64,000 nt of DNA, from contig NZ_JAIEZQ010000001.1 of assembly GCF_019679455.1 (NCBI RefSeq), forward strand, positions 558,001-622,000, in the 5' to 3' direction. Of this stretch, positions 1 through 31,716 are shown in pieces; the stretch's first letter is position 1; the number at the start of each line of letters is the position of its first letter. Below the pieces are notes generated by a model. The model was not told the origin of the DNA and ran no database searches. It worked only from the letters and a program-made list of their open reading frames with translations. The stretch is from Nocardioides jiangsuensis. Lineage in GTDB: Bacteria > Actinomycetota > Actinomycetes > Propionibacteriales > Nocardioidaceae. A program made the position numbers and the translations under genes.

Positions 1-2209
1 GCGCCCGGCGCGCCTCGTCGGCCTCGGCGAGGGTGCAGCCGGCGAACTGGGCGATGATCTCGATGACCTGCTCGTGGAAGACCACCACGCCGGAGGTCTC
101 CTCCAGGATCGGCCGCAGGTCGTCGTGCAGGTAGGTCGGCATCGACCAGCCCTGTCGGGCGTTGAGGTACGGCGTGATCATGTCGCTCTTGACCGGCCCG
201 GGCCGGAACAGCGAGATGTCGATGATGATCTCCTCGAACGTCCGCAGCCCGGACTTGCCGACCAGCTCGCGCTGGCCCGGCGACTCGATCTGGAAGCAGC
301 CGAGCGTCTTGGACTGGCCGATCAGCGAGAAGGTCGCGGGGTCGTCGAAGGGCACCTGCGCCTCGTCGTCGAGGTCGACGACCTCGCCGTCCACCCGCTC
401 GATCTCGCGGAGCGCGTGCGCCATCGCCGACTGCATCCGGATACCGAGCACGTCGAGCTTGAGCAGGCCGAGGTCCTCCACGTCGTCCTTGTCGAACTGG
501 CTCATCGGGAAGCCGGCGTAGCTGGCCTCCACCGGGGTGCGGTCGAGCAGGGTGGCGTCGGAGAGCAGCACGCCGCAGGGGTGCACCGCGATGTGCCGTG
601 GCAGCCCGTCGAGCCGCTCGACGAGCCGGAACATCAGGTCGAGCCGCTCCTCGCCGAGACCGGAGGCGCGGAGCTCGGGCAGCTCCCGCAGCGCCACCCG
701 GGCGTCGCGGGCACGGATGTGCGGGAAGGCCTTGGCGATCGCGTCGACCTCCCCCGCCGGCATGCCGAGCGCGGCCCCGACGTCGCGGACCGCGTGCCGG
801 ACCCGGTAGGTGTCCATCATCGAGACGCAGACGCAGCGTTCCCCGCCGTAACGGTCGAGGATGCGCTCGTAGACCTCGAGCCGGCGCGCGGACTCCACGT
901 CGACGTCGATGTCGGGCAGCGCCTGGCGCAGCGGGGAGAGGAACCGCTCCATCAGCAGCCCGTGCCGCAGCGGGTCGACCCCGGAGATGCCGAGCAGGTA
1001 GTTGACCAGGCTGCCCGCCCCGGAGCCCCGGGCGGCGGAGCGGACCCCCATCTCCCGGACCAGGTCGGTGACGTCGCCGACGGTGAGGAAGTAGGAGGCG
1101 TAGCCGAGCTCGTCGATGGTGCGCAGCTCGTCGTCGAGCCGCTTCCAGATCCGCTGCCGCGGCGCGCTGCCGTACCGGCGGCCGATGCCCGCCTCGCAGC
1201 GGGCCCGCAGCATCGCGCTCGCCTCGGCCCGCGAGGAGCCGAACTCCGGGAAGTGCACCTCGCCGAGGCCGAGGTCCTCCCGCGGGTCGACCGCGCACCG
1301 GTCGGCGACCATCCGGGTGCGGGAGAGCAGCTGGCGGGCGTCGCGCTCGCCGAGGCCGGCGAGCCGGCAGACCTCCTCGGCCACCTCGGCCATCTGCTTG
1401 CCGGACTTCAAGAAGCCCTCGGCGTTGCCACGGTCGACGTGGCGCAGGTCGAGCGGGACCAGCCGGCGGGCGGCGTCGAGGACGTCGACGGTGGGCGCGT
1501 CGGTCCGGTCGGCGTAGCGGACGGCGTTGGTCAGCACCACCCCGAGCCGCTCCGCCCGGGAGATCCCGGCCATCCGCGCGGCGTGCGAGGCGGTGCCCGG
1601 CCCGGACCCCGGCAGGCGGTGGGAGACCACCTCGACGAGTAGGTCGGCGCGGTCCACGACGCGCAGCCACGGCTGGAGGGCGGCGCGGGCGAGGTCGTCC
1701 CGGCGCAGGGTGGTGGCCCGTCCGAGCTCGGAGCCGGGGCCGAGCATGACCAGCACGTCCCGGCCCGCGACGTGCTCGGCGACCAGGTCCACGGTGGTGA
1801 CCGGGGTGCCCCGCTCACCGGCGAGATGGGTCGCGGAGACCAGCCGGCACACCGCGGCCCAGCCCTGCTTGCTGGTGGCCAGGAACGTGGCCCGCGGCAG
1901 CCGCTGGTCGCGGAAGGCGCCGCCGCGCGCCGGGGTCCGGCCCCGGCGGCCCGCGGTCGCGTCGGCGGCCGGGGGCAGCGCCCCGGTGGGGGCCACCGCG
2001 AGGTCGACGCCGAGGACCGGCCGCACCCCGGCCTGCATGCAGGCCTTGGCGAAGCGGACCGCGCCGTAGACCCCGTCGCGGTCGGTCAGGGCCAGCGTGT
2101 CCATCTCGTGCTCGACGGCCCGCTCGACGAGCACGTGCGGGTGGGAGGCGCCGTACTGCAGGGAGTAGCCGGACGCGACGTGCAGGTGGACGAACGGGTC
2201 ACGCGACAC
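1..2209 (-). CDS. dnaE2: Error-prone DNA polymerase III alpha subunit DnaE2, 3' part outside the window
   Basis: About 736 N-terminal codons of a C-family replicative-type polymerase; the gene runs off the left edge. I translated it from GTG at 2209. The PHP domain opens FVHLHVASGYS, the degenerate form seen in actinobacterial DnaE2 rather than the HLHVHxEYS of DnaE1. The polymerase core has the catalytic PDIDVD motif and LLKLDVLG with the third catalytic Asp. Family knowledge: DnaE2 does mutagenic translesion synthesis during the SOS response, usually with ImuB. The start overlaps the end of the upstream HEPN gene by 11 bases, so the two are probably translationally coupled. No ImuB/Pol Y gene is visible here. 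No frameshift appears in the stretches I checked. Confidence 0.9.
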   Translation of the reverse strand, partial: MSRDPFVHLHVASGYSLQYGASHPHVLVERAVEHEMDTLALTDRDGVYGAVRFAKACMQAGVRPVLGVDLAVAPTGALPPAADATAGRRGRTPARGGAFRDQRLPRATFLATSKQGWAAVCRLVSATHLAGERGTPVTTVDLVAEHVAGRDVLVMLGPGSELGRATTLRRDDLARAALQPWLRVVDRADLLVEVVSHRLPGSGPGTASHAARMAGISRAERLGVVLTNAVRYADRTDAPTVDVLDAARRLVPLDLRHVDRGNAEGFLKSGKQMAEVAEEVCRLAGLGERDARQLLSRTRMVADRCAVDPREDLGLGEVHFPEFGSSRAEASAMLRARCEAGIGRRYGSAPRQRIWKRLDDELRTIDELGYASYFLTVGDVTDLVREMGVRSAARGSGAGSLVNYLLGISGVDPLRHGLLMERFLSPLRQALPDIDVDVESARRLEVYERILDRYGGERCVCVSMMDTYRVRHAVRDVGAALGMPAGEVDAIAKAFPHIRARDARVALRELPELRASGLGEERLDLMFRLVERLDGLPRHIAVHPCGVLLSDATLLDRTPVEASYAGFPMSQFDKDDVEDLGLLKLDVLGIRMQSAMAHALREIERVDGEVVDLDDEAQVPFDDPATFSLIGQSKTLGCFQIESPGQRELVGKSGLRTFEEIIIDISLFRPGPVKSDMITPYLNARQGWSMPTYLHDDLRPILEETSGVVVFHEQVIEIIAQFAGCTLAEADEARRA

Positions 2210-2732
2210 CGGAGCGCCCCTGGACGAGCGGGAGGTACTCCTGGAACGGGACGTGCCGGGTCAGGCCCAGGCACTCCTCGACGACGCCGAGGAAGCGGTC
2301 GGCGTCACGGACGAGGTCGTCGGCCTCCCGCTCGGTGACGGCACGGACCGAGCCCGCCTCCGCGGCCGCCCGCTTCGCGGCGCCGGCGGCGAAGAACGCC
2401 GCCCACTCGCTGAGCTCGGGAGCGACCTCGGCGAGCAGGACCCAGGCGTTCTTCTGCGGCGAGCGGCCCCGCCGGGCACCCGCGACCGGGTGCGCCCGAG
2501 CGGCCAGCAGGGCGGCCGTTGCCCGCAGCGCGGACACGTGGGCGTGGGCGTAGCGCAGTGTCACCTCCGAGGTGGTGATCGCCTCGCGCAGGGACGCCGC
2601 CGCACGCTCGAGGTAGGAGTGGGTCGCCGCCGGGAGGGCCAGGGGGTGCCGGGCCGGGCCGGGCGGGACCGCCCCGCCACGGGCCGGGCCGGCGGGGCCG
2701 TGCGGACGGGGGGACCTGGTGGAAGTGGTCAT
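2199..2732 (-). CDS. SAV_6107-family HEPN domain protein
   Basis: 177 aa, helical, starting MTTSTRSPRP. I chose ATG 2732 over longer in-frame options because GAGAGGG sits 6 nt upstream and the upstream extension is low-complexity Arg/Gly. The core (roughly residues 40-165) has the conserved SYLERAAASLREA and TLRYAHAHVSALRATAALLAAR segments of the SAV_6107 HEPN family, which commonly accompanies dnaE2 or Y-family polymerase genes in actinobacteria. Its biochemical role is unknown. It sits 11 nt after the DUF6504 gene and overlaps dnaE2, so all three probably share one mRNA. I see no clear RxxxxH nuclease motif, which would favour a structural or adaptor role (inference). Confidence 0.8.
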   Translation of the reverse strand: MTTSTRSPRPHGPAGPARGGAVPPGPARHPLALPAATHSYLERAAASLREAITTSEVTLRYAHAHVSALRATAALLAARAHPVAGARRGRSPQKNAWVLLAEVAPELSEWAAFFAAGAAKRAAAEAGSVRAVTEREADDLVRDADRFLGVVEECLGLTRHVPFQEYLPLVQGRSGVA

Positions 2733-2743
2733 CGCAGGCCCTC

Positions 2744-3118
2744 TCAGTCCACGCAGCGGGCGAGCTGCCAGCTGCCCGTCGCCCAGTCGAAGACGAGGTC
2801 GAAGACGCCCCGCCCCGCTCCCCCGGGCCCCGACGCGGCGAGACCGCGGGCCGCCTCGACCCGCCACACCTCCCGCTCGGCGGCGAGGTCGCTACGGACC
2901 AGCACCCCGCCCCCGTCGGATTCGCCGGCGGCCCCGGAGTCGGCGGTGCCGAGCACCGCGCGGACCCCGGAGGACTGCCACCACGGACCGGTCTCCACCC
3001 AGTGCGCGACGACGTCGCACACCTTCCACAGCCGGCCACGCCACAAGAACTGCTCGGGCCCCTCGGTGTCACCCACCATTCCCTTGCGCACTTCCACGGG
3101 GTCGTCGTAACGCCGCAT
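2744..3118 (-). CDS. DUF6504 family protein
   Basis: 124 aa beginning MRRYDDPVEVR; ATG 3118 is preceded by GGAGGGTGGG at good spacing. The frame stays open upstream to a GTG at 3280, but that extension looks like non-coding GC-rich filler. The protein carries the tryptophan-rich QFLWRGRLWKVCDVVAHWVE segment and ends DWATGSWQLARCVD, features of DUF6504, which occurs next to actinobacterial translesion polymerase genes. Function unknown; the small size suggests an accessory factor to the polymerase (inference). First gene of the DUF6504-HEPN-dnaE2 operon. Confidence 0.75.
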   Translation of the reverse strand: MRRYDDPVEVRKGMVGDTEGPEQFLWRGRLWKVCDVVAHWVETGPWWQSSGVRAVLGTADSGAAGESDGGGVLVRSDLAAEREVWRVEAARGLAASGPGGAGRGVFDLVFDWATGSWQLARCVD

Positions 3119-3460
3119 GTCCCACCCTCCGACGAGATAGTCACCAGACCAGCTACTGAGCTCGACCCCTGCCCGACCCCTGCTCCCCCCGCTCCCGCGG
3201 GGGTCCGTGCCGCCTCCCGCACCGGCTCGGCGCGGGAGGTGTGGGCGGGGATGGGGGTCGAGGTCATCCCCGCCCAGCACGGGTGTTCGAACACCTGTTC
3301 GAACACATCCAAAGGTACACCTGGCTTCCGACAGTCCGTCAAACCTTGCGGAGAAACCTGGGGACGGCCGGGGGACGCCGATGAGTTCCGGCCCGGGCCG
3401 CGGTCTACTCCTTCAGCGGCTCACCCCGGGGCCGCGACCGGCACGAAGGGACCAGGAGCC
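3119..3460. other. Divergent intergenic region
   Basis: 342 bases between the DUF6504 operon (minus) and the VOC gene (plus). It holds the LexA-type box at 3283-3306 and otherwise GC-rich sequence. On the minus strand a TATCTC near 3130 could be a -10 close to the DUF6504 start. No convincing gene or RNA is seen. Confidence 0.6.
3283..3306. promoter_or_regulatory. LexA (SOS) box
   Basis: The core TCGAACACCTGTTCGA (3287-3302) matches the actinobacterial SOS box TCGAAC-N4-GTTCGA exactly. The palindrome extends to 11-bp arms, GTGTTCGAACA and TGTTCGAACAC, around a central CC. Each half also contains the smaller palindrome GTTCGAAC. It lies about 165 nt before the DUF6504 ATG and 155 nt before the VOC ATG, so it could serve either side. 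Known involvement of DnaE2 in the SOS response favours the minus-strand operon. Confidence 0.88.
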
Positions 3461-29505: not shown

Positions 29506-31653
<2,148 letters not shown>

Positions 31654-31666
31654 GGCGCCCACCCTA
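31654..31666 (-). promoter_or_regulatory. Leaderless -10 box for recQ
   Basis: TAGGGT (complement of 31661-31666), 7 nt before ATG 31653; it decides the start codon. Confidence 0.6.
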
Positions 31667-31716
31667 GGTGCGCACGCCGACAGGCCCGCGCCCCGGATGC
31701 CCCGCCGCCGGACCGC

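Follow-up and report, generated by a model that had tools for sequence, protein, structure and literature searches.

A probable DNA-damage-inducible mutagenesis operon of Nocardioides jiangsuensis combining dnaE2 with a predicted standalone ImuB C-terminal domain and a Y-family polymerase

In the LexA-controlled ImuA'-ImuB-DnaE2 mutasome of Mycobacterium, the polymerase DnaE2 is linked to its partners by the C-terminal domain (ImuB-C) of ImuB, a single fused protein that joins this domain to an inactive Y-family polymerase, and ImuA' is present as well. The Deinococcus lexA-imuY-imuB-C-dnaE2 cassette, also under LexA control, has no ImuA and encodes ImuB-C as a separate small protein beside DnaE2 and a Y-family protein, ImuY, that is predicted to be inactive; ImuY and DnaE2 are both needed for UV mutagenesis (PMC8072749). 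The Streptomyces DnaE2B-iPolY (DinB2)-RecA system pairs DnaE2 with an inactive Y-family protein and has neither ImuB nor ImuB-C (PMC6511836, PMC12926913), and in S. venezuelae dnaE2 and dinP are induced together in the SOS response (PMC9380542). A DnaE2-[ImuB-C]-PolY(-RecA) arrangement was published in 2026 for Actinobacteria, with Tessaracoccus lapidicaptus as the example, in which DnaE2B occurs in an ImuB-less genome together with a standalone ImuB-C and an apparently active Y-family polymerase, PolY (PMC12926913). Here, we describe a dnaE2 operon of the soil actinobacterium Nocardioides jiangsuensis whose 5' part lies at the left end of a 64-kb stretch of DNA (the window, G000:C1:558001-622000, where G000 is the source genome) and which, as judged by its gene content and sequence, is a member of the DnaE2-[ImuB-C]-PolY-RecA type.

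Three tightly packed minus-strand genes open the operon, as a first-pass annotation of the window had recognised. The first (2744-3118) encodes a 124-amino-acid DUF6504 protein (PF20114, E 8e-18) and is separated by 11 nucleotides from the second (2199-2732), which encodes a 177-amino-acid HEPN_SAV_6107 protein (PF18726, E 1e-32; HEPN below). The HEPN gene in turn overlaps by 11 nucleotides with dnaE2, assigned from its Pfam domains, which occupies 1-2209 and is cut by the left edge of the window after the N-terminal 736 codons of an open reading frame of 1313 codons that runs on to G000:C1:556268. The first-pass annotation counted two small proteins as companions of the polymerase, but the set of genes proved larger outside the window, where the operon continues on the same strand into an S-adenosylmethionine (SAM) methyltransferase gene, located by tblastn at G000:C1:555472-556272, and a gene for a 403-amino-acid PolY at G000:C1:554200-555411. 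Thus the position beyond the left edge, where an imuB in the same operon had been considered, holds no imuB but does hold a Y-family relative. The catalytic motifs of DnaE2 are intact, and its PDIDVD and LKLDVLG motifs align with those of other DnaE2 proteins. PolY retains intact MDAFYA and SLDEAF motifs, and active-site motifs were retained in 51 of 53 PolY sequences.

The locus and its genome have an intact DnaE2, a standalone ImuB-C, an apparently active PolY and no detected ImuB, four features of the Tessaracoccus type. Unlike the Deinococcus cassette, the operon carries HEPN and methyltransferase genes and does not contain lexA; unlike the mycobacterial mutasome, it lacks the fused ImuB, which was not found in the source genome. 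A Tessaracoccus locus in our own set (L267) reads DUF6504-HEPN-DnaE2-PolY and has an exact SOS box. In the main text of PMC12926913, the term HEPN has 0 occurrences, and no mention was found there of the methyltransferase or of the promoter motif of the PafBC type described below. Details of a known type that seem to be new are the equation of DUF6504 with ImuB-C in such operons, the PafBC motif, and the repeated presence of HEPN and methyltransferase genes.

Profile-profile comparison (hhalign) aligned DUF6504 with the C-terminus of proteobacterial ImuB (P 4.4e-10, probability 96.7%), with a score of 67.0 vs. 20.7 for the best of 60 column-shuffled controls, and the subfamily of the window's DUF6504 protein alone gave a P of 1.9e-5. 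PF20114 matched two plasmid-encoded ImuB proteins at their C-termini, weakly and below the Pfam cut-off, and the same Pfam model matched in the Caulobacter control genome. In RefSeq, a Deinococcus cassette with the layout lexA-PolY-DUF6504-dnaE2 (L070) has its small gene labelled DUF6504, and in the published cassette of the same layout this small gene is called ImuB-C (PMC8072749). The AlphaFold model of the window's protein is all-beta (predicted local distance difference test, pLDDT, 83) and a Foldseek search of the PDB with it returned no relative; the published description of ImuB-C is of a beta-barrel with no close relatives in the PDB (PMC12926913). These comparisons identify the DUF6504 protein as the C-terminal domain of ImuB encoded as a separate protein. 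No mention of DUF6504 was found in the literature searched, and this Pfam family would thereby gain a role as standalone ImuB-C, the function of which becomes testable on its own in culturable Nocardioides-type bacteria.

The first-pass annotation had inferred that ImuB was missing from the locus, at least on its visible side, and a genome-wide search agreed. The source genome has three IMS (Y-family) genes, none of them ImuB-like, and an actinobacterial ImuB C-terminal profile had no match in it, while giving clear matches in 36 of 59 relatives, all in frames of more than 500 amino acids. On these two grounds, a recognisable ImuB is apparently absent from the genome as well as from the locus. 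The two IMS genes outside the operon were considered as ImuB candidates and rejected, because the IMS domain of each is full-length, scores highly and has its motifs intact, unlike that of ImuB2, for which the IMS match is partial and weak; we take one to be DinX-like and the other DinP-like. Among 37 genomes of the window's family, 20 had DUF6504 only, 14 had ImuB only, 2 had both and 1 had neither (Fisher P 2.7e-7, a value that overstates the independence of the genomes because they are related). In one of the two genomes with both (G013), the DUF6504 operon is without DnaE2. A genome of this kind that is scored as having no imuB would not be a polymerase-only genome, but one in which ImuB is split into parts.

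Upstream of the DUF6504 gene, TCGAACACCTGTTCGA at 3287-3302 matches the LexA (SOS) box TCGAAC-N4-GTTCGA with 0 mismatches and is the sole exact match in the window. It lies within a perfect 24-bp palindrome at 3283-3306, GTGTTCGAACA-CC-TGTTCGAACAC, with 11-bp arms about a 2-nucleotide centre, exactly as first described. Four exact boxes were found in the 3.97-Mb genome, compared to ~0.07 expected from base composition alone. The box upstream of DUF6504 was exact in 64 of 76 relatives with DUF6504 and had one mismatch in a further 8 (72/76 in total), and it was exact in 25 of 26 loci of a further set of relatives. Because the genome count exceeds expectation and orthologous operons retain the box, it is not a chance occurrence. 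Both lexA and recA are present in the source genome, and other SOS boxes lie at lexA, recA, uvrA, a 2OG-Fe(II) oxygenase gene (alkB-like) and two DUF222 genes. The assignment of the operon to SOS (LexA) control, predicted from this pattern, is strongly supported. By contrast, the suggestion of two LexA dimers was rejected: the GT/AC flanks reflect a family-wide preference around one single box, and therefore extended arms alone are no sign of two dimers; in addition, 3 mismatches were counted in the neighbouring register. As a separate observation, the DUF222 (13E12-type) genes with exact boxes are at G000:C1:1581850 (L188) and G000:C2:1119395 (L184).

The reading of this promoter as a LexA target is supported but had missed a second element. 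Directly upstream of the LexA box, on the minus strand, is a motif of the PafBC/RecA-NDp type, TGTCGG-AAGCCAGGTG-TACCTT (3312-3333), that includes the -10 element TACCTT; it was identified by motif search and conservation, and it follows a -35-like element, TTTGAC (3338-3343, minus strand, within TTTGACG), where a TTGAC-like sequence recurs in many relatives. The published PafBC motif is TGTCGG-10N-TA-3N-T (PMC8151990). Two motifs of this type were present in the window, compared to 0.10 expected. TGTCGG-N10-TAnnnT with the exact N10 spacing was found in 38 of 72 and 23 of 37 related promoters (two sets); at any other spacing from 4 to 19 the motif was found in none of the related promoters, and shuffled sequences gave ~0. 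The pattern also precedes recA, uvrA and one DUF222 gene in the source genome. Since the motif is kept at one fixed spacing in relatives and precedes these genes, dual control of the operon by LexA and PafBC is likely. At the L188 DUF222 gene, too, a perfect PafBC motif immediately precedes the SOS box.

Conservation of gene order was assessed in 26 loci of relatives with DUF6504 (L117-L142) and in the best 80 relatives of DnaE2, which came from Nocardioides and other Nocardioidaceae, Geodermatophilaceae, Frankiales metagenome-assembled genomes (MAGs), Propionibacteriaceae including Tessaracoccus, and Intrasporangiaceae. The order DUF6504-[HEPN]-DnaE2-[methyltransferase]-PolY was kept in most of the 26 loci, which belong to the same family, order and class as the window; HEPN was lacking in seven (L121, L122, L123, L127, L130, L134 and L136) and the methyltransferase in a few. 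Of the best 80 DnaE2 relatives, Tessaracoccus rhinocerotis included, 76 had DUF6504 and 73 had HEPN. Methyltransferase calls in this larger set are unreliable, as the profile was contaminated by PolY sequence, and the positions given for this gene rest on tblastn of the smaller set. The actinobacterial mutagenesis operon thereby gains two recurrent genes and, with PafBC, a likely second damage switch. HEPN and the methyltransferase are recurrent and apparently undescribed members, and no paper combining LexA, HEPN and dnaE2 was found in the literature searched. One further locus (L214) holds the Nocardioides-type operon with 70% identity on a contig whose title names a Spirochaetaceae MAG, probably as a result of a binning error.

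We consider it probable that the window contains the 5' part of a mutagenesis operon inducible by DNA damage, with the order DUF6504 (ImuB-C)-HEPN-dnaE2-SAM methyltransferase-Y-family polymerase. In its leftward promoter, an activator motif of the PafBC type would precede a single LexA operator placed over the start region, and because both are there, damage should induce the operon through LexA cleavage and, separately, through PafBC. DnaE2 would be the error-prone polymerase; DUF6504, the C-terminal barrel of ImuB in the form of a free subunit, would most likely dock DnaE2 to its partner, by analogy with the way ImuB-C is modelled in Mycobacterium; and the intact Y-family protein encoded downstream probably serves as the scaffold contacting the clamp and RecA, a role filled elsewhere by ImuB and ImuA.

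Several observations weigh against this reading. The RecA-binding motif of PolY is only a resemblance: the tail is conserved and looks like the RecA-NT motif, but a hidden Markov model profile of it did not find the RecA of the source genome above decoys, and a loose pattern matched 31 of 53 PolY sequences. The match of DUF6504 to the C-terminus of actinobacterial ImuB2, at the right place, was weak (P 0.0017 at best). The mutual exclusion of DUF6504 and ImuB fails in another family of the order, in which three loci (L137-L139) carry an SOS-boxed DUF6504-HEPN pair with neither DnaE2 nor PolY beside it and ImuB is encoded elsewhere in the genome. Five ImuB-bearing relatives (L143-L147) have a separate HEPN-methyltransferase-PolY operon, without DUF6504 or DnaE2, and each of these loci contains an SOS box; several Geodermatophilaceae loci read DUF6504-HEPN-DnaE2 with no PolY adjacent to DnaE2. 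PolY is thus not necessarily a partner of DnaE2.

The last two observations favour an alternative in which one promoter serves two separable SOS modules, with DUF6504 and DnaE2 forming the mutasome by themselves and HEPN, the methyltransferase and PolY acting independently of DnaE2. Because HEPN-methyltransferase-PolY is an SOS operon of its own in ImuB-bearing relatives, the operon does look like two fused modules, and a DnaE2-[ImuB-C] type lacking PolY has been published (PMC12926913). However, nearly every DnaE2-bearing locus of the window's family has PolY in the same operon, and HEPN sits between DUF6504 and DnaE2 instead of forming part of a separate block. We therefore regard functional independence of the two modules as possible but rather doubtful.

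Within the mutagenesis operon, HEPN and the methyltransferase are more likely to be damage-response factors induced together with the mutasome than core subunits of it, since they travel with PolY also where DnaE2 is absent. The AlphaFold model of HEPN is a helical bundle (pLDDT 86.5), and its best Foldseek matches in the PDB were HEPN domains (top three, probability 0.94-1.00, E 0.24-0.41). R60 and H65 do not vary among 48 relatives and have the R-x4-H spacing of HEPN RNase motifs, which would suit a damage-induced RNase, co-induced with the polymerases as a growth-arrest effector. Such a role is nevertheless unlikely: in other HEPN proteins the RNase motif lies late in the domain, but R-x4-H is early here, in helix 2, and of 34 members at a greater distance, 4 have Q or Y in place of H65. 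The SAV_6107 family was moreover scored as lacking the RNase motif in a published survey (PMC3710099), and no antitoxin-like partner was seen at the locus. It is about equally improbable that HEPN is a functional mutagenesis subunit, nucleic-acid-processing or regulatory, that would use R60-x4-H65 to gate DnaE2 and PolY during damage. The proposal of the first-pass annotation, that DUF6504 and HEPN replace ImuB as the sole accessories of DnaE2 with no Y-family partner, is very improbable, as both genes adjoin dnaE2 in most relatives but HEPN is missing from seven otherwise similar operons and so is not essential, DUF6504 itself is ImuB-C, and the operon includes a Y-family gene farther downstream.

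Two minor observations concern other genes with these regulatory elements. Of the two PafBC-type motifs in the window, the second (31661-31682, minus strand) is at the very start of a minus-strand gene (29506-31662) for a 718-amino-acid protein, which, from reading its sequence, we take to resemble a RecQ-type DNA helicase. A small gene of ~125 amino acids without a Pfam match, which may be a new SOS gene, lies behind an exact SOS box at G000:C1:393995 (L187).

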